Source of the DNA: a virus
Length of the DNA: 64,000 nucleotides
IMG/VR virus record: IMGVR_UViG_3300025646_000030
Location: 1-64,000 of that record
Strand: one strand, 5' to 3'
Part shown: piece by piece, positions 17,535 through 45,968 of the stretch
Layout of the letters: every line of letters begins with the position of its first letter
How positions within the stretch are numbered: the stretch's first letter is position 1
Translations under genes and position numbers: made by a program
Notes under the pieces: model-generated
Seen by the model: the letters and a program-made list of their open reading frames with translations, nothing else
The model's database searches: none
Told to the model about the DNA's origin: nothing

Positions 17535-20500
17535 CACTCGATCACCCAGTTGCCAGCAGTATCGAAGCCATCGGCCAGCTCCAGGATGCCCGAAGCGTTG
17601 GTTGGCATGTGAACTGCCTCAATCGTAAAGGTGCCCTCTTCATCGGGCGTCACGCGCTCGATCTGATAGGTGCGCACCTGCGTGCTGGGCAGCTTCAGGG
17701 TGAACACCACGCCGGTCGGTGTCGCGGTAGTGCCGCTGCCACCAACGGTCAGCGTTGCATCGGCCGGCGGGGTGCCCTCGGTGCCGTCCCATGCAATCAC
17801 GGCATAGGTGCCATCGGTCAGGGGCTTGGTGCTGACCAGGGCGCCGGCGGCGGTGACCACGCCATTGTTGAACTCGTCGTACTGGGTTGCATCCATCGCC
17901 ACACGGATGTAGTCGCTCGGACCGAACTTTGCCAAGGCACCTTCGTGGGTGGTGCGGAAGCTGATCACATGCGTGGGGATGCGGCGCATCCTGATGATGT
18001 ACTTGGCTGCGTCGATCGCGTGCTCGCGGCTGGTGCAGTAATCGCTGAGGTCGAGCGACTCGACGGGGGCTCCAGAGTCCACGCCGTCCTCGGCTACCAG
18101 GACCTCGCGCACAGTGGGGAAAATGCCTGGGTTGGTGAGGTCGGTGGACGCGCGCTCCTCGCGGTAGCGAACGGAAACGCGAATCGGATCGCGGTCCTCC
18201 GGGTCCAGGTACTGCAGTTGGAAAGAGCCCTCGACGATATTGCCGGCGGTGAAGAGACCCTTGATCGAGACCGCGGTTGCCTGCAGGGCAGGCCGCAGGA
18301 AGAACTTGCCGTCGCTCTCGCCGAAGATCAGCAGATGTGTGGCCGCGGTGTCGGCGGCCCACTGGCGCAGGTTGACGCGATCGGCCACAACGCCATCAAA
18401 GAAGTAGTTGCGGTCTTGACACCACTGAGCAGCTGTCTGGAAAGATGTCAGATCGATCATCTGATCTGTGACCAGATCTCCGGCTCCGTAAGACATGTTG
18501 GTCAGTAGATCCAGCAGGATGTCGGGGAACAAGTGCGTGGCTCCGGTGCTGAGGCTGTTCAGTAGGCGCCGGCAGGTTTTACCGTCGGTGACATAGGCCG
18601 AGAGCTGGGAGAACTGGCTCCACTCCGCGGAGGAACGGATGTTCATGCCCACCAGGGCGAGGTTGTCGTACTGCGGGACCGGCAGGTTGGGCACGATCTC
18701 GTTGACGTAAACGACCCGGTGCTCCGGTGCGGTCTCAGCGGTGCTTCTGACCTCGGAGTAGACGAACATCTCGGCGAGCTTGCCGAAGTCATCGAGGTGG
18801 CTCTCGTTGTCGGTCGTGGGCAGGCCGTAGTAGGTGCGGAAGGTGCTTGGCTCGTCGCCGTTGGTCTTCTCCTCGTACTGGTAGCTGCCGCTGAGGCCCG
18901 GATTAGCCTTGCCGTAGTTGATCCCGAAGGTGGCGGTGTTGAGCGGGACGGACTCGCCGTTGATCACCACCGTGGTGCCGTTCTCGGGGATGGTCAGGCG
19001 GGACTTCTTGGCATCGAGGACGTAGAGCTGGCCGCCGGCCATGCCGTTGCGCACCTCGAAACCGGTGAGGGGCTCCAGCATGAATTCGCGGTGCCGGATG
19101 CTGCCGTACTCCAGGCGGATGTAGTTGAACAGCGCCTGGCGGGTTTCGCTGCGCACCCCGTAGGCGTTGCTCAGGGTTGTCCAGTTGCTGCTGCCCGACT
19201 CGCGCCAGCGCAGCTTGAAGAAGCTGTAGCGCTGCGCTGGGCCGTTGACCGTGCTGCTCTGGTAGAAGACGTTGATGATGTCCTCCGCTTCTTCGTTCTC
19301 GAAGCACCTGCAGTAGGCGTTGTCGGCGTAGTTGTGGGTCTTGGCGTCACGGAAGTTGCACAGGCCGTTGATGCTGATTCCGAGGGTGGAGCTCAGCCCG
19401 AGCTCGACGGCCTGGCAGGGGCGGTTGGTGGTGATGTGGGCACTGGCGTAGCGCAGGATGTGGCCGCCGGTGGTGGCGACCTCGCGGCGGCCGGCGTCGC
19501 CGCCCGTGTCCTTGAGATAGCTCTCGGTGAAGCCCTTGATCGTGCCGCCGCGCACCACGGTGAAGGTGGCGGTGATGGTGGTGCCGCCGGTGCCCTCGAG
19601 GTCGGCCTGGCTGACGAAGACCTCATTGCTGCGGCTGGTGAGGACCGCCAGGGCGCTGCCGACCTTGTAGAGCTCACCGACCACCAGGTTGTCGTCCCAG
19701 TTGTGCTGCTGGCTGGCGACCGCGCTGGCAACGTCCTTGCACTCAGCCTCGCCGTCTGCGGGCTCGGTGTAGACGTTGAACTGGGTGGCCCAGTCGCTCT
19801 CGTGGAACAGGCGGTAGGTGATGGTCTGGCCCACCGAGACGTTGGCGGTGCCGTTGCCGATGATCCCGCTGAAGGTGCTGAAGTGCGCGCGGAACTTGTC
19901 GCGCTCATTCATCTGCTGGCTATCGACCGGGCACTGGACGTTCACTTTGTCGTCGGCCTTGGGTTTCAACCGAGAGCGCACACCCGGGCGGATCACCGGG
20001 TTGACCTTGAACATCAAGTCATTCCCGATCGGGGCATAGACCCCGAAAGTGGCCTGCGACGTCGGATTGTGGCTGGAGCAAAAGTCAGGTTTGGGCCCAC
20101 CCTGCCAGTAGACCTGGAACACGTCGGCGCTGGAGGAGCTCCCGTCGTCGTTGGCATTGCTGCGGCCCAGGATGCGGTCGGCGCCGGTGATGCGGCCGCC
20201 GCCGGGGCGGAAGTAAATCGTGGTGCGGCCGGCCTGCTGGGTGGCGGCGTTGTCCTCGAACAGGTAGCCGCGGAGCGTGTTGGAGCCGATCGCGAAGTTG
20301 TTCGGATCGATCGAGGCGATCGGGCCCTCGCCCAGCAGGAAGACACCGCGCAGCATCTGCCCGCCTCCCAGCGACAGGATCTGGTTCCACAGCATGGGGG
20401 TGTTGACCCGCACGCCGCCGTAGGTGACGCCGCCGATGGTTTCGCGCAGGGCATAGACGATCGGGATCACCGAGCCCAGGGTGGAGATGTCCTGGTTGGA

Positions 20501-35559: not shown

Positions 35560-35847
35560 CTACGGGGCGAAGCCTTCAGCCCAGATCGAGTCGCGCTTCA
35601 GACGGGGTTGCTCGCCATGGCCGTTGCGAGCGCGGTTGGTGGAGGGATCTTCGAGGACGGTTTTTCCGGCCTCGGTGTGGGAAACGTCAGGGCCGCCTTT
35701 GCCGTCGATGCCACGTCTGCGGCGCTCGCGGTTGAGTTCAGCGCGGCGCTTGCGTTCCGAGGGGCGTCGGTTGATCTCCGCTTGGGCGCGTTGGCGCTTG
35801 GCCCGGGCCTCGGGATGGGAGCGGTAGTAGGCGGCGGTGGAGGTCAT
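35560..35847 (-). CDS. Basic conserved phage protein
   Basis: A 95-aa basic protein: AYYRSHPEARAKRQRAQAE, INRRPSERKRRAELNRERRR and DVSHTEAGKTVLEDPSTNRA. Similar small proteins occur in large phages of aquatic bacteria, with no known function that I can name. The end DSIWAEGFAP resembles the terminal tags DSVYADGF and DGMYAKGF of two larger proteins nearby, which suggests a shared sorting signal. Confidence 0.65.
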   Translation of the reverse strand: MTSTAAYYRSHPEARAKRQRAQAEINRRPSERKRRAELNRERRRRGIDGKGGPDVSHTEAGKTVLEDPSTNRARNGHGEQPRLKRDSIWAEGFAP

Positions 35848-35850
35848 GGG

Positions 35851-37353
35851 TCAGTCTTCCCACTCGTTGACAGTGAATGGGCGCTGTCCACGTCGGGTCG
35901 TGAGCGGGCGAGGCAGTGCAGTACCGAAGGGCTGTTGACGTTCGCGAGCAAGACGCGCATCGCGCTCGGGTTTGAGGGCGAGGAAGAGACGTGCGGGTTT
36001 GACACCTAGGCGGCGGGCTTCGCTCTTAATTGCAGTGGGGCGAAACTTGAGATCACGTTCAAACGCTGCACGGTCTGTTGAGCCTCGTTGAGCGGTCAAA
36101 ATCCGCCGCGTAAGCCCTGGAATTCGAGGTTGATCCAGACTGCGAACAAACCGTGAACGGGGCATGCGCCCCTCAGTCCAGAGCAGGTCGGCCTCGAGCG
36201 CGTCGTGGTACCGGTTGACCGCTACCTCGAATTTTTCCCAAGAACGACTGTAGTCACGAGCTTGTGTTTCGATATTATCAAGCACACCTTTGAAGCGGTT
36301 ATCTGTGAAGTCTCTTGCGTCTGCCTCGCTATACCCGACCATTGAAGGCAATCTACGTAGATCACTTAGTAAGTTTTCGACACCATCTCGGGAATGCACT
36401 GGGTGCCTGTAATCATCGATATCAGTAGAGTAACCAAAGTCAATAATGGCAACTTTGCGGCTACGCGGCTGCACCATGATGTTGCCGCTATGAATATCGC
36501 CATGTGCGAGACCCTCGGTGTGTAGTTTGCGGAACTCGCGGAGCATTTTGACTTTGACAATCGAAGGGGCGCTAGCTGCAGTGCCATAGGCGTCTGGGTG
36601 CACAGAGTCCAGGGTCTTGTAGCCCCTCATGTGAGAAAGGATCAGCGTCTGCGACCGCACGTCACCGTATTCGTCTGTGACAGCGTTCATGCCTAATGGT
36701 TGTGGGACGTTGACCCCTTTGCCGTGTGCTTTATCCAGGCGGTCATATTCCCAGCTGACGTCGTCATCGTCTCCGTTGCGGAATAGCTTGACGCCGTACT
36801 TCTCAGATGGATGGACGAAGTAGGTGCCGAATGCACCTTCCCCGGCTTGGCAACGCGGGTTGGGGATCGCCGCGTCAAACTTCGCCGGGGCTGTCAGCTT
36901 TCCCAGGCCATTGCCGCACTCCATGGCGCGACGACGCGCGTTGATCTTTTCCTGTACGTCCCACTTCTGCCCACCGGCGACGGCCTCATCGGCGATTTTC
37001 CGAGCCTGCTCAGGTGTGAGCTTTTGATTATTTCGGGCGCTATCAGGTCGTGCGCGCCGTTCTCCAACGGTTAGAGGGCGTTGCTTGTTGCGTATGTGTT
37101 TAGCCAAATAGGCACCTCCTGTTAGTACGCCTGCGGCAAGAGCCACTTTAGCTGCGGTTTGGAGGTTTGAGTTGGTAGAGGAACCCGCTTTTTTACTGCA
37201 TTTATGGTTCTTGGGAATAAACGACTCACCGCACGGCTTTCCCTTCCCGCCCTCGGGGGCGTCGATCCTTACCAGGCCGAGGACTTTCCCGGCGTCAGTC
37301 CGTCGCGGCGGCTCGTTTTGCCCGAGCACTTCCACTTCGCCCTGGAGAGGCAA
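35851..37353 (-). CDS. Membrane-anchored kinase-fold protein
   Basis: A 500-aa protein with a kinase fold. The N-terminus has the cysteine motif CGESFIPKNHKC (C41, C52) and a membrane-like helix (TAAKVALAAGVLTGGAYL, about 66-83). Kinase signatures follow: glycine loop GEGAFGTYFV (171-180), VKLF with K189, catalytic loop HGDIHSGNIMV (D286, N291) and metal-binding IDFG (D305). HGD rather than HRD places it near atypical or aminoglycoside-type kinases. All catalytic residues look present. Located between portal and protease with a shared family motif, it is a candidate virion-delivered kinase acting on host proteins. The ATG overlaps the upstream gene by 85 bp and is not certain. Confidence 0.75.
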   Translation of the reverse strand: MPLQGEVEVLGQNEPPRRTDAGKVLGLVRIDAPEGGKGKPCGESFIPKNHKCSKKAGSSTNSNLQTAAKVALAAGVLTGGAYLAKHIRNKQRPLTVGERRARPDSARNNQKLTPEQARKIADEAVAGGQKWDVQEKINARRRAMECGNGLGKLTAPAKFDAAIPNPRCQAGEGAFGTYFVHPSEKYGVKLFRNGDDDDVSWEYDRLDKAHGKGVNVPQPLGMNAVTDEYGDVRSQTLILSHMRGYKTLDSVHPDAYGTAASAPSIVKVKMLREFRKLHTEGLAHGDIHSGNIMVQPRSRKVAIIDFGYSTDIDDYRHPVHSRDGVENLLSDLRRLPSMVGYSEADARDFTDNRFKGVLDNIETQARDYSRSWEKFEVAVNRYHDALEADLLWTEGRMPRSRFVRSLDQPRIPGLTRRILTAQRGSTDRAAFERDLKFRPTAIKSEARRLGVKPARLFLALKPERDARLARERQQPFGTALPRPLTTRRGQRPFTVNEWED

Positions 37354-38252
37354 AGCGGAGTGTTGCGGTCCTTACCACCGCAGTCCTTGCCGTGGGACTT
37401 CATGTCACCGAAGCTACGAGCGCAGTACCGGTCGCCTTTGTCGGTGCCGGGTGCGATCTTGTAGCCCTTGGCGCCGTAGCGCACCTTGTTCTTGCGGCCG
37501 GTCTTGGGGTTGGTGACGGTCTTGCTGTACTTCTTGCCGTCCTCGGTGTCGCGGCGGGTGGGGGGTTGGAGCTGGACCGGGGCGTAGTGCTGGATGAAGT
37601 TGTCGGTGCGGCCGAAGCCGCGGGCCTTGCGGCGGCGCGGTTGACCGGTTCGGGGATCGATCGGGATGGCCTCGCGCTGCGGGGTGAGATCGCCAGCGGT
37701 CAGCTTGGGCTGGGTTCCCTGGGGTAGGCGGCGTTGATCAGGGGCGCGGTAACCGGGCTCGAACCGACGGCGGGCGGCCTCGGTGCGGAGGCGCAGCTCG
37801 CGCAGGGTCGTTTTCGCAGCCATGCCGGTGGCTTCACCGGCGGCGGCCATCGTGTTACCGATTTGCCCAAGGCGCCGAACTTCTTCCCGGGCGGTCTGGG
37901 CGATACGGCCCTCGGCGTTTTTCACAGCAGCTGCGGTGTTGGCCCGCATGCGCTGCGTTTTGGACTGACGCGGAGGTGCTGCCTTGAGCAGGGCGCGAGG
38001 TGACGATCCGGGAAGACGCGGTGCAGGCGAAGGACCCCGGAAGCCAGGCACCGAGCTCGAGGGGCGAGCGGTTCCTGAGCGACCCCGCTTGCTCAGCGCA
38101 GCGGCACCGAGAGCGAGGGCACCGGCGGTCAAACCAATACCAGTAGCGATGGCGACTTTGGTGGCAGGGCCTTTTGTACATTTTTCGCCCTCGGAGATAG
38201 CTCCTTTGCCGCACTTGAGGTCGAGGCGTAACGCACTCGGGGTCAGTGTCAT
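37269..38252 (-). CDS. Motif-bearing basic protein, DUF6321-like end
   Basis: A 327-aa protein starting MTLTPSALRLDLKCGKGAIS, with the paired cysteines C14 and C25 and a membrane-like helix (VAIATGIGLTAGALALGAA). The middle is Arg-rich. The C-terminus (YSKTVTNPKTGRKNKVRYG, KGYKIAPGTDKGDRYCARSF, then NTPLCLSRAKWKCSGK) matches, from memory, the DUF6321-type end found in many aquatic phages. Likely head-associated and nucleic-acid binding; the enzymatic role, if any, is unknown. The start overlaps the upstream gene by four bases. Confidence 0.7.
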   Translation of the reverse strand: MTLTPSALRLDLKCGKGAISEGEKCTKGPATKVAIATGIGLTAGALALGAAALSKRGRSGTARPSSSVPGFRGPSPAPRLPGSSPRALLKAAPPRQSKTQRMRANTAAAVKNAEGRIAQTAREEVRRLGQIGNTMAAAGEATGMAAKTTLRELRLRTEAARRRFEPGYRAPDQRRLPQGTQPKLTAGDLTPQREAIPIDPRTGQPRRRKARGFGRTDNFIQHYAPVQLQPPTRRDTEDGKKYSKTVTNPKTGRKNKVRYGAKGYKIAPGTDKGDRYCARSFGDMKSHGKDCGGKDRNTPLCLSRAKWKCSGKTSRRDGLTPGKSSAW

Positions 38253-39601
38253 AGCCCTAGTGCCTCCCAGTCGATGTCGAAACCATCGGCGTAGACGGAG
38301 TCGAGCTTGCCGCGTCGGCGCATAATCTCCTGGTATGCGGCGTTGATCTGCTGAGCCTTGCGAGGATCGCCGCCAGCGTCAGGGTGATTCTGGCGCATCA
38401 GCTGGAGCCACTTCTTCTTGATGTCGGCATCTGAGGCGGTCTCGGGTATATCGAGGTCTTTGAAAGGATTCTCGACGGCCTTGTTAGCCCCAACGTTGCG
38501 GCTGCCCTGACTGCCAGAAGCTGCGTTCTGCTTTGCACGTTGCTGTGCCTGCTCACGAGCTGCGTTCCACTGGCGTTTGTAGTTCTCGGCACCCATGACC
38601 CACTCAGCCTCTTTGGAGACCAGTTGGGTACGAGCACGGCGAGCTCCAATGAAGTTCCCCGCACCTAAATACATCAAAGTGCCGCCAGCCATAATGGCTC
38701 CGGCCTGCCTTTTCTTGGGTTCTTTGGCGTACTCGTTGGCTATTACACCGGCGCCTGCGATACCTAAGCCGGCGCCGGCAATTTCACCTGCGCGTGCGAT
38801 ACCACTGAGCTCCTGAAATACCTTCTTTCCCTGTGCAATTCCTTCATCTGGAGTCGCGCCTTTGCCCAGAGGTCTTGAAGCAATACGCTTTGCTGAACTA
38901 TATTTTGCAACGCCCAGCGCAAGTCCCCCGAGGGCGGCGGCACCGCCGACACCAAGAGCTACATTGCGAATGGTGTTGTTTTCTTTTGACTTGGCTTTAG
39001 TGGCAGGACCTTTGGTACATTTTTCGCCCTGGGAGATGGCGCCTTTGCCGCATTTGAGGTCTTGCCTTACTGCTTTAGGGGATAACGCTGAATCTGTGCG
39101 TCTCATAAATTTGTCAAAAGCATCTGGATCTTTAGCTAGCTCTCCTAACTCCTCGAAGGTCATAGCTCTACTTTTAAATGCGTCTTGAAACTTTTTGCTT
39201 TTGACTACGTCTCGTATGGCTGCGCGCTTTGCCTTGTCGGCTTGCATTGCATGAGCTACTTCTTGCGGATTTTCTCGTACCCGGCGCTGGGCAGATTCCA
39301 CGGCACGTTTACCTAAAGATTCAGCCTTGGCTCGGCGTGCTGCGATGGCAGCTGGATCGCGCGGGGGTGGCTTAGGAGGGGTCTTGGGGATATTCGGCAC
39401 AGTGCGCTCATCCCCACCTCGAGGCTTTCTCCCTCGGCGGCGCAGCGCAATAGCCCCTGCGGCTAAACCCAAGCCAAGAGCGATAGGTGCAACTTTCTCA
39501 ACAACCTCTTGAGCAGCGCCCTTAGTGCACTTTTCGCCCTTAGAAATTGCGCCTTTGCCGCATTTCAAGTCGTTCCTGACCGTACTCGGAGTAAGGGCCA
39601 T
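38249..39601 (-). CDS. Motif-bearing membrane protein with J domain
   Basis: A 450-aa protein with two copies of the cysteine motif, at residues 11-27 and 181-197 (DLKCGKGAISKGEKCTKG and DLKCGKGAISQGEKCTKG), each followed by a hydrophobic helix. A third hydrophobic region lies near 270-320. The C-terminus (about 377-430) is a J domain with NPFKDLDIPETASDADI and the HPD signature at 406-408 (MRQNHPDAGG). J domains recruit and stimulate Hsp70. The last residues DSVYADGFDIDWEALGL resemble the end of the next protein. A phage protein that would dock host DnaK at a membrane or in the virion is unusual. Confidence 0.75.
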   Translation of the reverse strand: MALTPSTVRNDLKCGKGAISKGEKCTKGAAQEVVEKVAPIALGLGLAAGAIALRRRGRKPRGGDERTVPNIPKTPPKPPPRDPAAIAARRAKAESLGKRAVESAQRRVRENPQEVAHAMQADKAKRAAIRDVVKSKKFQDAFKSRAMTFEELGELAKDPDAFDKFMRRTDSALSPKAVRQDLKCGKGAISQGEKCTKGPATKAKSKENNTIRNVALGVGGAAALGGLALGVAKYSSAKRIASRPLGKGATPDEGIAQGKKVFQELSGIARAGEIAGAGLGIAGAGVIANEYAKEPKKRQAGAIMAGGTLMYLGAGNFIGARRARTQLVSKEAEWVMGAENYKRQWNAAREQAQQRAKQNAASGSQGSRNVGANKAVENPFKDLDIPETASDADIKKKWLQLMRQNHPDAGGDPRKAQQINAAYQEIMRRRGKLDSVYADGFDIDWEALGL

Positions 39602-39604
39602 CGC

Positions 39605-40564
39605 TCACATCCCCAGTTGGGCGTAGTCGACTTTGAAGCCTTTTGCGTACATGCCGTCTTTGTAGCCGACGCTCTTGCGCCATTTCTTCTCTTTCTTCTC
39701 GTTAATCGCGTGTTGTTGAAGATCTGTGTTGCCAAAGGCGCCTACACGACGAGCGGCACCAAAGCCAGCTTGCGGACCGAACACCAGTGTAGAAGCAGCT
39801 ACAGATGCGACTTTACCTGCGGTACTACCTTTTTCGTTTTTACCGCCTGTCATCCCTGTTGCCAGAGTTTTGCCGATGTTGTAGCCAGAGGTCCACTTAA
39901 CCGTCTCTAGTGCGCCACGGCCAATACCTTTAGCGACTTGGCCTGCTTGAACAAGTGCGCTTGGACCTTGGGCTTTTTGTGATTTAACAGGGTCTAATTT
40001 ACCTGTTTTTTGATTAAACGATGAATACTCCATCAGCTTACCCGACTTGGACGTGCGAGCAGCTATTTGTTGAGCGGCACGAATTTTAGGGTCTACCTTT
40101 TGCGCTGGACCCTTCGTGCATTTCTCGCCTTGAGAAATGGCGCCCTTGCCACATTTAAGGTCAAGGCGCTCTGCAGCGTCCAGTCGGGCTCGGATGTAAG
40201 AGCGGCTACGTCCCTGGATGCCGAGATCGCAGGCAGCGAGGTATTCCTGCGGGGTCAAGGCGTCGTTGCGGTCCATCTTCTTGCCGCAGTTCCCATCGCA
40301 CTTGCCTTTGCCCTTGCGGCCGCCGCATCCGCAGCCTTCGCCGTCCATGGGCTTCTTGCCGTACATCCCGCCGTCCATCGGCTTCTTGCCGTACATGCCG
40401 CCGTCCATGGGGGCCTTGGTCTGCTTGGCCCCCTTTGCGGAGCGCTTGCGGTTGGTCTTGCCTTTTGGCATAGGCATTTCCTGATCGTCCTCGCCCTCGC
40501 GGATCTCGTCCGGGCCAGCCTCCATCTCCATTGGCGGGCGCTTTTTCATGGAAGAGGCAGGCAT
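39605..40564 (-). CDS. Motif-bearing Met/Lys-rich head-region protein
   Basis: A 319-aa protein with a low-complexity N-terminus containing the tandem unit KPMDGGMYGK and cysteine-rich CGCGGRKGKGKCDGNC. Then comes DLKCGKGAISQGEKCTKG (C138, C149). Unlike its relatives no strong helix follows immediately, but hydrophobic segments appear near 250-270. It ends DGMYAKGFKVDYAQLGM, similar to the end of the J-domain protein. No catalytic domain recognised. It follows the Mu-F-like head gene with a 38-bp gap. Confidence 0.65.
   Translation of the reverse strand: MPASSMKKRPPMEMEAGPDEIREGEDDQEMPMPKGKTNRKRSAKGAKQTKAPMDGGMYGKKPMDGGMYGKKPMDGEGCGCGGRKGKGKCDGNCGKKMDRNDALTPQEYLAACDLGIQGRSRSYIRARLDAAERLDLKCGKGAISQGEKCTKGPAQKVDPKIRAAQQIAARTSKSGKLMEYSSFNQKTGKLDPVKSQKAQGPSALVQAGQVAKGIGRGALETVKWTSGYNIGKTLATGMTGGKNEKGSTAGKVASVAASTLVFGPQAGFGAARRVGAFGNTDLQQHAINEKKEKKWRKSVGYKDGMYAKGFKVDYAQLGM
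40346..40415. repeat. Tandem repeat in motif-bearing protein gene
   Basis: A unit of about 30 bp (CTTCTTGCCGTACAT then CCGCCGTCCAT) is repeated twice with a partial third copy, encoding repeated PMDGGMYGKK. Copies differ at a few third positions, so the repeat is not a recent perfect duplication. Confidence 0.7.
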
Positions 40565-40602: not shown

Positions 40603-41484
40603 TTACCGCTGTTGTGATACGGGAGTCGGGGCGATCTGCTCAAAAACCGCTGCGCGGTTTAGGGATACACCCGATGCACTCACACGAGCCTGCGCATCTC
40701 GGACTTCGTCGCGGTGCCGTTCTCGGGAGGCGGCGTAATCCGGGTCCATATTGGCGACTTCGGCATCCCACGGCGCGAGGTAACAGCGACAGCGCGGGTG
40801 CAGAGGAACACGAATATCTTGCCTACGATAAATGTGCCCTGCGCGAGGTACGCATAAAGGGCATGCTCTATCGTCAGCAGTGGCGTAATACATCACAAGC
40901 TCAATGCCCTGCGCTGCGTAGTACGTATTGGATGCATCGTTGTACGCACGAAGCGATTCGGTGCGCACGATCGCTTCAGCACGGGATTTCACCACGCTGA
41001 GGCGAGAGCGCAGGTCCTGGACCATGGCGTCAGTGGGTCGGCCTTCGGCAACACCTTGGGCGACGGTGAAGGCAGCGGTCTGGGCGAACTTCTCACCGTG
41101 TCTGCGTAGGTAGCCCTTGGCTTGGGCAGCAGCGGCGTAGGTCGCTTCGAGAGGGATGGAGACGTCAACGCGAGGCCCTGTCTTCACCTGACTGGTGAGC
41201 TCATCAGCGACGGTCAGGCCGTAGCGAGATGACGTGCCCGCGAGGTTGCGCAGGATGCGGTCATAGGCGTCCACCGCGTTGGGGTTGAACACTGGGATCA
41301 ACATGCGGAACTCCTGGAGCAGGACCAGGTTTCGGCTCACGGGGTCGGCGTAGCCGATCCGCATATGCACCCGAGCGCGGCGAACCAGGCGGTTGAAACT
41401 CGCGTCCAGTACGCGATTCAACATAGTGATGGTGCCGTTCTCAGAGGTGCGCAGCAGTGCGTTGTAGCGCTCAAGTAGGTTCAT
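40603..41484 (-). CDS. Mu F-like minor head protein
   Basis: A 293-aa protein of the Mu gpF / SPP1 gp7 type. The C-terminal half has AEAIVRTESLRAYNDASNTY, then DDRACPLCVPRAGHIYRRQD and VPLHPRCRCYLAPW, giving the conserved C..C, H..C pattern. Such proteins sit on the portal, enter the head in low copy and may be ejected. It follows the 1495-aa protein with a four-base overlap rather than the portal directly. Confidence 0.8.
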   Translation of the reverse strand: MNLLERYNALLRTSENGTITMLNRVLDASFNRLVRRARVHMRIGYADPVSRNLVLLQEFRMLIPVFNPNAVDAYDRILRNLAGTSSRYGLTVADELTSQVKTGPRVDVSIPLEATYAAAAQAKGYLRRHGEKFAQTAAFTVAQGVAEGRPTDAMVQDLRSRLSVVKSRAEAIVRTESLRAYNDASNTYYAAQGIELVMYYATADDRACPLCVPRAGHIYRRQDIRVPLHPRCRCYLAPWDAEVANMDPDYAASRERHRDEVRDAQARVSASGVSLNRAAVFEQIAPTPVSQQR

Positions 41485-44400
41485 GCGGCTAGTAAACGAG
41501 CGCGCTGAAACTGATAGGCAATAGTATATGCATCCCCGCGGTCACTCTTATTAGTTGCTTTAGCTGATGGACTTACTTGCTTTTCTAGGTCTTTACGAAT
41601 CTGCTTTTGAGCGTTCTTAACACGATTGGCGTTGTAACCACCATACCAAGTTTCAATCATTCTGTCTTCAATCTCAGAGCGGATGCGTGCTTTGGTCGCT
41701 TCGCGTTGTGTCGGTGATTTAAGTGCAGCTGTGTATTCTTTCATTTTACTGGCAGCGTTATCCCCGAATAAAGTGTTTAGATCACCTTCCATGGGTTTGT
41801 TTTCACTAACTCGCCATACGAGTTCATTGAGAAGCTCGCCGGAGCGCTTCCTATCGACGTTCAGGTAGGACCAGGCTTCTCGCTGTAACTGCTTGTCGTA
41901 CAGGTAGCTATTGCCCTCAGCTAAGTTTTGCTTCCAATTAGCTCCGTACTCTCGGTTATTTTTATCTATCTTTTCTGTGAGGCCATGCGGGATATTGTCA
42001 TTGTTAAGTATACGGGTGTTTCCACCGGTGAAAGCCGCTCCTCCTGAAATCTTGTAGAAATCGTCGCCTTTGCTCACCCAAGTGCGCATGTTGTCGTCGC
42101 TATGACTGAACATCCCGAATGTGGGGCCTGCTACATTGACTACTTTCACATCGCGATAACCCATATCGTGCAGAATAGCTAGTGTTTCACTTGCTACATT
42201 GCCTCCATTACTGTAGGACAAAATGTCTACGGGTTTACCAGTTAAACGGCGTTGAGCTACTACAAAAGCAGCGGCGCGGACAGCGTCAGGATTAAAACCT
42301 CGCTCGTCCACGTTTTTCCGTAAGTACTTAAAGCGGTCTTGTATGTCTTTAATACTATGCATAGCTTTAGCTGCTCCTTTGGCTTGCTCCCCTAGCCCTA
42401 TAGCTGAGCCTAGTTTCTCCGCACTGCGAACAAAGGCTTCACGTTCTCGGACAACTAGATCATCAGGCACAGACGTAGTGGGCTGTGAAATGTTGTTGGC
42501 GTAAGGGAGTATGTCTCTGTCTCCCCAAATTTGACTGAATGCCTTGGCTTTAGCCAGCATGTGGCTACCTTGACCACGGTGCGTGAACTTATTGTCGTCT
42601 GCGTAGGACAGCATTACGACAGCACCTTTACTATTAGGTGTCTGTCCATACCAAGCTGGTTCAGTATCGTTTGAACTAAATCCACGGTCTTGACCTTTGT
42701 CCTTAAAGTTGTAGACAGACGCTTCGAAATCACTGACTTCGTTCGGCTTTTTATTAAGACGTCTAGCAGCTCGCTCGCGGAATTGACGTTCCATCTCCAC
42801 GGCTAGTTTTTCAGCTTCGATCGCTGACTTGGCAACATTTTTGCGATATGCGGAGATCTTGGCTCGCTTTGTGCCTAATACGGCTATTGCAGCAGCTCCC
42901 CCTGTAACGGTCAGCGCTCCTGCGACAACCTTTGCTGTACTTAAATTGGACTTCTGCTCGGGTGCAGTTGCATTTGTATTAGGCTTTGCACTGGTTGTCT
43001 TAGTGCACTTATAGTTATCGGGAATCGCAGACTGACCACACCGCTTGTCAACGCGAAATTCATGCAAATCTACAGCGTCGTTACGAATTAAGTCCGCAAT
43101 TTGCTCAATATGATTATCCCCCATTCTTGTGAACTTCCCTTTTGTTTTCATAGCAAACAGACGCTCATCGGAAGACAACGCTTGCCGAAAACCATATTTC
43201 TCGTAGATCGAGCGGCGTTTCTTCCCTTTATTATCGTTAGCATAAGGAATGGCGGTTATGATTGAGTTGTCAGGGATCTGTTCCATCTGAGATTGGAACA
43301 TTTTCTTCACTGTAGATGCTACACCTCTTGCATTACGTGACGCTGCAGGCGACTTGGCGTCAAATTCACCATCCACCCGAAATTGAGTGGAGTATGCGCG
43401 AGCTCCACCAATGCTATCTTGAGGTTTCGTGTTATAGATAATCAAAGTTTCACCAACAGATCCTGTACTCAGTAGAGTTCCGTCCTCCATCTGCCAGTTA
43501 CTAAAGTTGTCTTTATTGTTAACGGATGTAATCCGCCCACCTTTTGCCTTAAGAGCCAAGTGCGCTGCGCTAACCTTGGCATCTCCTACTAAGCGGCGCA
43601 CAGGCTCTTGGAAGTTCTTGGGAAGACGACTTATTCCGGTATCTACTTCTGCAGTAGATAGTGTTTTAATAGTACGTTTGCTTAATTCAGCAACTGTCTG
43701 CTGAGTCTGAGTGCGCACTACATTGTTCGCTACACGACGACCAGCGCGAGCTCGTACAGCAGTACGACGGTAAAGCTCCCGATTATTCGTGCGCAGAGAT
43801 CGCCGCGCCTGTAGTGTCCCCTGTCGGGCTGTCCGTGCGATTGTCTTACGATTGCGTACTGCTCCTACAACAGAAGCAACACCCCCTGCAACAGCTGCAA
43901 TTTTAGCTGCTTTATCTAAAGCCCCACCGCCTGACTTTAGATGGCAAGTTGATGTCGGCGGAATACATAAGTTTCCGCATTTCTGATTGGGAGGAAAGCA
44001 TGTGAGACCGGGCTGTGCTGCTCCTTTTACACGGTTAGCAGCTTCCTCAGATTGAGGAGGTGTGTTCTTAGTGCATTTTGCTTTTTCGGGAATACCAGAC
44101 TTGCCGCAACGCTTATCTAGTCGAGCAACTGTCTCTAAGTAAGCTGCAACTCGAGGTGTGAAATGTTGTTCTTCGTCGTCGCGATTGCCATACTGAGCGC
44201 GGCGGCGCTCGTACTCGGCTTGAGCTGCTTCTCGGGTGGCGTAACGCGGTGTGCCGTCAGGGTTCTTCTGACGCATCATCGATGCGATGACTTGGGCAGG
44301 GGTGCGCCGACGCGCGGGGCGGCCGCCCGCGGGGGCGGGTGTTTGCGGTTGGGGCTTACGTCGTCGAGGACCCGGGCGGATCTCGATCTCCGCAGAAGTG

Positions 44401-45968
44401 AAACCGTACTCGGTCTTGAGTAGCTGGATCGCTTGTGCGGGGGTCAGTTGTTGCTTACCTGAAAGCTCCCTGGCTGCTTGTACCGCAAGCCGATCGGTAA
44501 TGGTATAGGGGGACTTGCCTGTGCCTGCTACTTTTGTATGGTAGTAATCAAGAAGAAAAAGTGCGTCATGTTCTGCACCTTTGCTCACGGTGTTTGGCTT
44601 AGTGCTTGTTTGCATTAAGTAATCTATACGCCTACGTTCTGCCGCTTTGCGTAGCTCTAATAGTCCGGGTTGTTCCGCTATTACATTTTTTTCAAACTGT
44701 TCACGCTCAGCACGCGGACGGTCAAAGGCAGGTGCATCTGCTGCTTGGATGAGGCTTTTGCTCTGCTCTTTGTAGTATTTATCGAAAAATTCGACATGGC
44801 CATTATAGATCTCTCGTGCGGCGGAGCTAGGCGCGAGATTACGTATAACTGTGTCTACATACTTGGCATGCGCGGCACGTTGTCTTTCGTTAGTGATCGC
44901 TCTTGTGGATCGACTAACGAAGGCGTCGCGCTGGTTGCTATCGATGTACTGCGCACCTGGACGTCCGAGCACCTTGAACCCTTGCTGCTTGGCTAGCTGC
45001 AGAAATGCATCCCGATCGGATTCGATTCTATCCGTGATAGCATTGACATAGTCTGCTCCTATTGTTGTTGGCGATAAGTTTAAATTCCATTCTGTATTCA
45101 TAAAAGCGTGAGCAGTCGGGACTGCAAATACACTTGTCCCGTCTTTGTGGGTAGCTCCCCAGAATGCTGTGCGGTGCTTTGTATTCCATTCGTAAAACGT
45201 ATTAGAACTACCTTGATTATCAACAACTTTTAGGGCTGCGTTTAAACTACTGCTCCCGGCTACCCAGCTACGTGGGATCGTAGTGGCGGGAATGCCGGAC
45301 TCGGGATTCGCGGCGTAGCTCCTGTTGCGCTGAGTGCGCCCAGCAATGCGAGAAAGATTTCTAGCTTCTGCACTGGCTGCTCGGCTGCGCGTATAGGCGC
45401 GCGCTTGTCCTATGAATGGAGTTCGGTCCAGGATCGCTCCGATTCCCTGCGCCACTGCGTAATCGATTTTGGCGCCAGCACCCTTGCGATAACCAAAAAC
45501 GTCTCCAGCTTTAAGGCCGCTATGAAGAGCAAGCCCTCCAGCTACGACTGAGACAGGTATTACTACCTTGGACCAGTTGTTTTCTACCCATTCTTTGAAT
45601 TCACCTTTTTCTTTTAATGTACCAGGCTTAAGCTTGACAGCCCCGCGTACAAATGAGCGCTTGCTCGATTCCAGCTCAGAAAAACTGCCGGTACGAGCAA
45701 AACGACCTAAACGCTTAATTCCCCGTTCTATGTTTGCAATGCCACTTACTGGATCTGTTCTCTTTGCTGCAAGATGAGGATCATTGCCTTGACCCTTTAA
45801 GCGACAGTTCCATTCAGGTGGGATACACCTGTTACCGCACTTAACGTTGGGTGGATTGCACTGTACTAAAGTGCGCGTTTTGCCTGTGCGGAAGTCCAAT
45901 CGCTGCTTAGTCGCAAGATAAGCGGCGGCGCGGGCCTGCGCTGCATCAATCGGGGTCTTCTCGTCCAT
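41481..45968 (-). CDS. Multidomain motif-bearing head-region protein
   Basis: A 1495-aa mosaic starting one base into the portal stop (TGATG). It has four cysteine modules in series: CNPPNVKCGNRCIPPEWNC (37-55), CGKSGIPEKAKC (621-632), CFPPNQKCGNLCIPPTSTC (657-675) and CGQSAIPDNYKC (977-988). Hydrophobic helices follow near 134-152, 687-704 and 1012-1031. Residues about 780-945 look GNAT-like, ending SIYEKYGFR. Residues about 1110-1330 look like a serine hydrolase with DILSYSNGGNVA (S1253 in a nucleophile-elbow context) and a later NIPHGL histidine. Two modules may be separate effectors joined in one chain. Base composition is lower in GC than the structural genes around it, which suggests acquisition. 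Cleavage by the head protease is possible but unproven. Confidence 0.65.
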   Translation of the reverse strand: MDEKTPIDAAQARAAAYLATKQRLDFRTGKTRTLVQCNPPNVKCGNRCIPPEWNCRLKGQGNDPHLAAKRTDPVSGIANIERGIKRLGRFARTGSFSELESSKRSFVRGAVKLKPGTLKEKGEFKEWVENNWSKVVIPVSVVAGGLALHSGLKAGDVFGYRKGAGAKIDYAVAQGIGAILDRTPFIGQARAYTRSRAASAEARNLSRIAGRTQRNRSYAANPESGIPATTIPRSWVAGSSSLNAALKVVDNQGSSNTFYEWNTKHRTAFWGATHKDGTSVFAVPTAHAFMNTEWNLNLSPTTIGADYVNAITDRIESDRDAFLQLAKQQGFKVLGRPGAQYIDSNQRDAFVSRSTRAITNERQRAAHAKYVDTVIRNLAPSSAAREIYNGHVEFFDKYYKEQSKSLIQAADAPAFDRPRAEREQFEKNVIAEQPGLLELRKAAERRRIDYLMQTSTKPNTVSKGAEHDALFLLDYYHTKVAGTGKSPYTITDRLAVQAARELSGKQQLTPAQAIQLLKTEYGFTSAEIEIRPGPRRRKPQPQTPAPAGGRPARRRTPAQVIASMMRQKNPDGTPRYATREAAQAEYERRRAQYGNRDDEEQHFTPRVAAYLETVARLDKRCGKSGIPEKAKCTKNTPPQSEEAANRVKGAAQPGLTCFPPNQKCGNLCIPPTSTCHLKSGGGALDKAAKIAAVAGGVASVVGAVRNRKTIARTARQGTLQARRSLRTNNRELYRRTAVRARAGRRVANNVVRTQTQQTVAELSKRTIKTLSTAEVDTGISRLPKNFQEPVRRLVGDAKVSAAHLALKAKGGRITSVNNKDNFSNWQMEDGTLLSTGSVGETLIIYNTKPQDSIGGARAYSTQFRVDGEFDAKSPAASRNARGVASTVKKMFQSQMEQIPDNSIITAIPYANDNKGKKRRSIYEKYGFRQALSSDERLFAMKTKGKFTRMGDNHIEQIADLIRNDAVDLHEFRVDKRCGQSAIPDNYKCTKTTSAKPNTNATAPEQKSNLSTAKVVAGALTVTGGAAAIAVLGTKRAKISAYRKNVAKSAIEAEKLAVEMERQFRERAARRLNKKPNEVSDFEASVYNFKDKGQDRGFSSNDTEPAWYGQTPNSKGAVVMLSYADDNKFTHRGQGSHMLAKAKAFSQIWGDRDILPYANNISQPTTSVPDDLVVREREAFVRSAEKLGSAIGLGEQAKGAAKAMHSIKDIQDRFKYLRKNVDERGFNPDAVRAAAFVVAQRRLTGKPVDILSYSNGGNVASETLAILHDMGYRDVKVVNVAGPTFGMFSHSDDNMRTWVSKGDDFYKISGGAAFTGGNTRILNNDNIPHGLTEKIDKNNREYGANWKQNLAEGNSYLYDKQLQREAWSYLNVDRKRSGELLNELVWRVSENKPMEGDLNTLFGDNAASKMKEYTAALKSPTQREATKARIRSEIEDRMIETWYGGYNANRVKNAQKQIRKDLEKQVSPSAKATNKSDRGDAYTIAYQFQRARLLAA

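Follow-up and report, generated by a model that had tools for sequence, protein, structure and literature searches.

A kinase-fold protein in the head gene block of a virus related to Synechococcus phage S-CBS4, probably joined to its upstream gene by -1 frameshifting

The tailed-phage frameshifts cited here produce tail chaperones or coat-protein extensions. In lambda G/GT the shift occurs at a slippery heptamer just ahead of the zero-frame stop and yields a chaperone for tail assembly that mature virions lack (PMC5009743). In gene 10 of T3 and T7 and the coat protein genes of phage A2 and Listeria phage PSA, frameshifting in a structural gene adds a C-terminal domain, Ig-like or short, to a fraction of the product (PMC5009743). 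Among the heptamers, G_GGA_AAG is named as highly shift-prone in the -1 direction and as the g-t site of archaeal virus HCTV-5 (PMC5009743). Retroviral gag-pol also uses a -1 frameshift, which sets a minor fraction of enzyme fusion and aids its packaging (PMC5009743). In MuF polymorphic toxins (PMC5576092) and in polyvalent proteins (PMC5512222), enzyme domains (kinase, ART) believed to be injected are linked to head genes, and the kinases of the latter have lost the C-lobe and carry an insert between the catalytic His and Asp.

The locus described here lies in a stretch of 64,000 nt (positions 1 to 64,000 of IMG/VR record IMGVR_UViG_3300025646_000030), hereafter the window, and shares features with each of these systems. 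Its heptamer class and stop position are those of lambda G/GT, but an enzyme, apparently an effector, would be appended to a head-block leader protein rather than a chaperone being made. As in the coat proteins, a structural-gene frameshift would extend a fraction of the product, whereas the extensions in the window's relatives are whole enzymes of exchangeable identity. The likeness to gag-pol, as to lambda G/GT, is one of design only, with no homology to the kinase fusion. In contrast to the MuF toxins, the enzyme is not fused to MuF, which is a separate ORF of 293 aa; it has a leader of cysteine motif and helix and appears to be attached by frameshift. It also differs from the polyvalent-protein kinases, as the C-lobe helices (174-244) are present in the structural model and H-G-D has no insert. 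We regard it as probable that the intact kinase is the C-terminal half of an 800-aa fusion made by programmed -1 frameshifting, and that it represents an exchangeable effector. No frameshifted phage kinase was found in the papers searched.

Kinase reading frame and its junction with the upstream gene

The kinase ORF was correctly placed at 35851-37353 by the original prediction, but it is read from the minus strand (37353-35851, 500 codons counted from TTG), and the same frame of the plus strand contains 13 stops. All the key kinase motifs that had been called intact were found in the 500-aa translation, as were the cysteine motif and the membrane-like helix ahead of them. The features of the junction and of the kinase part are as follows (residues in 500-aa numbering).

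37269..38252, minus strand: zero-frame ORF of 327 aa, with cysteine motif, hydrophobic helix, linker and a C-terminal CARSFGDMKS/CLSRAKWKCSGK module; the upstream partner of the putative frameshift
37284..37290, minus strand: G_GGA_AAG, the slippery heptamer, which is in the phase of the 327-aa ORF and lies four codons (SSAW) ahead of its TAA
35851..37284, minus strand: -1 frame ORF of 477 codons and a stop, with cysteine motif, hydrophobic helix, linker, kinase and C-terminal tail
37198..37233, minus strand: cysteine motif CGESFIPKNHKC of the kinase part, from residue 41
37102..37158, minus strand: Gly/Ala-rich hydrophobic helix TAAKVALAAGVLTGGAYLA
36826..36843, minus strand: glycine-rich loop GEGAFG, residue 171
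36787..36789, minus strand: invariant lysine in VKLF (VKLF at 188, K189)
36481..36504, minus strand: catalytic loop HGDIHSGN, residue 284 (D286)
36433..36441, minus strand: metal-binding motif DFG (IDFG at 304)
36169..36903, minus strand: kinase domain as modelled (AF2 pLDDT 89, pTM 0.85)

The helix starts 13 residues past the cysteine motif and has a KD value of 1.29 in the window and up to 1.77 in relatives. At the junction the zero frame reads CCG GGA AAG TCC TCG GCC TGG TAA, while the -1 frame continues straight into the kinase. A -1 slip on G_GGA_AAG would yield LTPGK|VLGLVRIDAPEGGKGKPCGESFIPKNHKC followed by the kinase, and the predicted fusion is 323 + 477 = 800 aa long. The in-phase GGGAAAG is rare: 21 genes of the window have 11,333 codon pairs, of which four, this site included, carry it. 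GGA accounts for just 120 of 937 Gly codons. A second slip site, A_AAA_AAC at 28494-28488, was seen in the tail-chaperone-like gene of the window (28985-28009, minus strand); it opens a -1 frame of 161 codons and is an ordinary G/GT-type site.

Upstream of the kinase its frame contains a TTG and GTGs in the window, and the first ATG comes about 120 codons in. The TTG at 37353, from which the ORF had been started, was rejected as an artefact. From this TTG to the end of the 327-aa ORF there are 84 nt, which are the conserved module of that ORF read out of frame, and in several relatives the frame is closed by stops, being open for just 4-10 codons.

Relatives, kinase fold and gene order

With the upstream module as query, 80 IMG/VR loci were fetched, and clustering of all module loci left 56 non-redundant ones (designated L with a number). 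The comparison establishes the slip site as conserved. GGGAAAG, in phase and within five codons of the zero-frame stop, is present in all 22 of the 56 loci that have the cysteine motif in the -1 ORF, and no cysteine-motif -1 ORF without the heptamer was found among the 56. A -1 ORF at least 100 codons long is associated with the heptamer at a Fisher p of 2e-9, with counts that take related phages as independent. Three loci have a -1 ORF of this length but no heptamer; they encode phrog_6437-like proteins, have no cysteine motif, and carry their own start codon at or near the stop. CCG GGA AAG is identical at 23 of 23 sites, and third-base entropy is 0 over four codons versus 0.8-1.9 bits immediately upstream. 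The pattern is that of lambda G/GT: an in-phase X_XXY_YYZ just ahead of the zero-frame stop, opening a long -1 ORF, and kept across relatives. In about nine distinct contigs (L004, L101, L007, L031, L103/L114, L112, L117, L118, and L120) there is no ATG, GTG, or TTG ahead of the cysteine motif in the kinase frame. From these sequences, a -1 frameshift at the kinase junction is strongly supported.

The fusion architecture is also borne out by comparison, as it is encoded in a single frame, with no need of a shift, by three contigs: L097, with one extra G in the run; L099, from which the module has been lost, so that ...EDGK runs straight into VVGLVRIDAPEGG; and L115. In a distant clade (L121, L125, and L126) the ORF has its own ATG start and a phrog_6437-like leader. 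The zero-frame ORF of L100/L005 is merely an 18-codon leader. In the distant relative L012, GGGAAAG was also seen at a tail-chaperone-like site (position 18114). The cysteine-rich module before the slip site resembles stand-alone small hypothetical proteins of unrelated marine phages, namely S-TIM5, CRP-212, and Vibrio phages.

Downstream of the slip site, third-base conservation extends for about 12 codons, which could be a cis signal or a recombination seam. Single RNA folds of this region were not more stable than those of shuffled sequences, and RNAalifold revealed no compensatory pair. A hairpin CGCCC/GGGCG was rejected as stimulator: 93% of cells are paired, with no covariation, and it folds no better than shuffles.

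The kinase ORF matches Pfam families APH (4e-10) and Kdo (2e-7), and ABC1 and RIO1 likewise pass the cut-off. In 31 aligned kinase domain sequences the Gly, Lys, helix-C Glu, HxDxHxxN, and DxG residues are invariant or nearly so; the glycine, lysine, glutamate, H/D/H/N, and D-G residues are also kept in 15 full-length relatives. The kinase is under purifying selection, as dN/dS in ten pairs is 0.05-0.23. Given the Pfam matches, the invariant residues, the low dN/dS, and the AlphaFold2 fold, the motifs are not a chance pattern. The domain model (pLDDT 89, pTM 0.85) has a bilobal protein-kinase fold, and the closest solved folds are PKR (Z 15.0, rmsd 3.8 over 191 residues), Pim1 (14.6), and PRPK (14.0), which are tied in Z, so that the structure gives no subfamily. 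The complete kinase fold that had been predicted, with structure prediction as the check, is borne out by this model and its matches to protein kinases at Z of about 14-15. The best match in a PDB sequence search is annotated as a protein kinase. The eukaryotic-type Ser/Thr kinase family PF00069 does not include the protein, as it has HGD for HRD and scores 25.6 bits versus a cut-off of 31.7. With Bud32/PRPK, RIO, ABC1, Kdo, and APH kinases it shares the minimal core and the HGD/HxD loop, and past DFG no APE motif was seen, as in these; unlike them, the window kinase has an additional leader and helix, and its NCBIfam scores for Bud32, UbiB, Kdo kinase, and Rio1 fall far short of the cut-offs (28.7 versus 142 for Kdo kinase). 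The T7 gp0.7 kinase family phrog_15752 was matched with E 0.042 over 28 residues, which is almost no sequence support. PADLOC gave matches to PD-T4-6 and MkoA, kinase-containing defence proteins (E about 1e-6); these are confined to the region of the kinase core and were not counted as membership.

Eight cysteine motifs were found in the window, all of them in one block (45.8-37.2 kb, five ORFs), and seven are followed by a hydrophobic helix. The further ORFs of this region are as follows.

41481..45968, minus strand: ORF of 1495 aa with three cysteine motifs, a hydrophobic helix after each, and GNAT-like and hydrolase-like stretches recognized by eye only
40603..41484, minus strand: MuF-like head protein (PF04233), the separate 293-aa ORF, a syntenic neighbour
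39605..40564, minus strand: ORF of 319 aa with one cysteine motif and no helix above threshold
38249..39601, minus strand: ORF of 450 aa whose leader is of the same type, with cysteine motif and hydrophobic helix each present twice and a J domain at the C-terminus (Pfam DnaJ 4e-7)
35560..35847, minus strand: phrog_6437, a small basic protein; the distantly related L121, L125, and L126 have it as an in-frame fusion with the kinase

The order portal, 1495-aa ORF, MuF, 319-aa ORF, (450-aa ORF), 327-aa ORF, kinase, (phrog_6437), protease, and capsid was found in most of 22 contigs checked, those that are short or from distant relatives being seen in part only. The position of the kinase in the head operon, as originally predicted, is supported by this comparison, and since it lies inside a conserved head gene block, late and head-linked expression is a fair inference.

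The slot after the slip site is exchangeable between the phages, as read from their sequences. In L075 it contains a second kinase type (RIO1, 4e-14), in L140 (2835-3671, minus strand) an ADP-ribosyltransferase (PF03496, 26.7 bits versus a cut-off of 23.4), and in L061 (2062-3495) a zincin-like HExxH protein whose matches to Peptidase_M3 and ATLF are weak and below the cut-off. L041 and L086 have GNAT-like proteins there, recognized by eye, and the slots of L007 and L008 hold double-enzyme fusions. In L036, L045, and L065 (near 4260) a phrog_6437-like small protein without its own ATG is in the -1 slot. L004 (217-2262), L100 (near 2967), and L123 (near 2365) have a second kinase-like core, in an ORF farther upstream within this block.

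The nearest named phage is Synechococcus phage S-CBS4, with a 55% identical capsid and a 39% identical portal protein, and the host is likely a cyanobacterium. S-CBS4 has a different cassette between portal and protease. In tblastn the kinase had no match in 50,697 phage records, nor did the 1495-aa and 450-aa ORFs in named phages, and no homologue of the kinase was found in sequenced prokaryotes (one genome per species).

Proposed expression of the fusion and alternative readings

The majority of ribosomes would terminate at the end of the 327-aa ORF, and a minority would slip back one base on G_GGA_AAG into the kinase frame. The 800-aa product would then consist of a cysteine motif, a membrane-like helix, the module, a second cysteine motif and helix, and the kinase, held by the frameshift at a minor, fixed fraction of the shorter product, much as gag-pol limits its enzymes and lambda G/GT its tail chaperones. 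The fusion would most likely be in or on the virion by its cysteine/helix leader, as a low-copy, membrane-anchored enzyme, and at infection the delivered kinase would phosphorylate host targets. We infer slippage in cells and its efficiency, together with incorporation into virions, delivery, and substrate; for packaging, delivery, and substrate the reasoning draws on position, leader sharing, and precedents of injected phage enzymes (PMC5512222). Delivery of the kinase with the DNA is plausible from its position and the shared leader of cysteine motif and helix, and virion delivery of the fusion, taken by itself, is close to evenly balanced. The original prediction stands for an intact, head-linked kinase, but it missed that the kinase appears to be the C-terminal half of a -1 fusion rather than a stand-alone gene, and that its slot is polymorphic.

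It is very unlikely that the kinase is a separate late protein, started in its own frame from a TTG or GTG upstream or from the ATG past the helix, with an incidental heptamer. Such codons are present in the window, and the distant L121, L125, and L126 do use their own ATG with the phrog_6437-like leader; however, the nine or so contigs without a possible start still have a nearly invariant cysteine motif, the upstream frame of several relatives is too soon closed, and the 22 of 22 heptamers and the invariant CCG GGA AAG would be left unexplained. An indel of sequencing or assembly, or a decaying gene, is hardly credible. It could be suggested by L097, which differs by one G and is fused in frame, but the same -1 junction is found again in over 20 distinct contigs, which come from different metagenomes, and by this recurrence sequencing error was rejected for the family; the kinase, moreover, is under purifying selection. 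That the junction is mainly a recombination seam for cassette swaps, with slippage incidental, is improbable as a whole explanation. The 12 codons conserved beyond the site without a supported RNA structure speak for it, as do the cassettes, which are clearly exchanged, and L099, which resembles a recombination product at the same short sequence; but a seam needs neither a perfect in-phase heptamer with a stop 0-4 codons on nor the loss of start codons. The two roles can coexist, and part of the nucleotide conservation at the junction could come from recombination. Programmed frameshifting is itself faced with L097, L099, and L115, which manage without a shift, and with L100/L005, whose short leader is hard to square with a ratio of two large products and is left unexplained by that model.

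If the frameshifted fusion is real, it might still work inside the producing cell, in take-over of the host membrane or in head assembly, and not be delivered. This is the less probable course but a serious one, as the helix could sit in the host membrane and late position by itself is no proof of packaging. It is opposed by the conserved placement between MuF/portal and protease genes, by the leader common to several neighbouring ORFs, and by known cases of enzymes, either fused to head proteins or packaged alongside them, that are believed to be injected (PMC5512222). Somewhat unlikely, too, is a small molecule or lipid as substrate in place of proteins, as for aminoglycoside- or LPS-like kinases. 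The top Pfam matches (APH and Kdo/WaaP) and HGD rather than HRD in the catalytic loop point to it, while the nearest folds (PKR, Pim1, and PRPK) and the top PDB sequence match point to protein kinases; the substrate is not decided by Pfam families, fold matches, or the PDB match.

Turning back to the frameshifted fusion, the comparison suggests a family of kinases and ADP-ribosyltransferases that are probably host-directed. The frameshift appears to control an effector enzyme and to provide a constant attachment point at which effectors are exchanged by recombination. We tentatively suggest, at somewhat less than even chances, that in S-CBS4-related phages the frameshift serves as a gag-pol-like slot by which interchangeable low-copy enzymes are placed on virion-borne membrane-leader proteins at a frameshift-set dose, as a polymorphic delivery system. 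Gene callers will miss or mis-start proteins attached by such a frameshift, as did the first reading of the kinase. If true, this arrangement would offer a testable explanation of how delivered enzymes are dosed by a phage.
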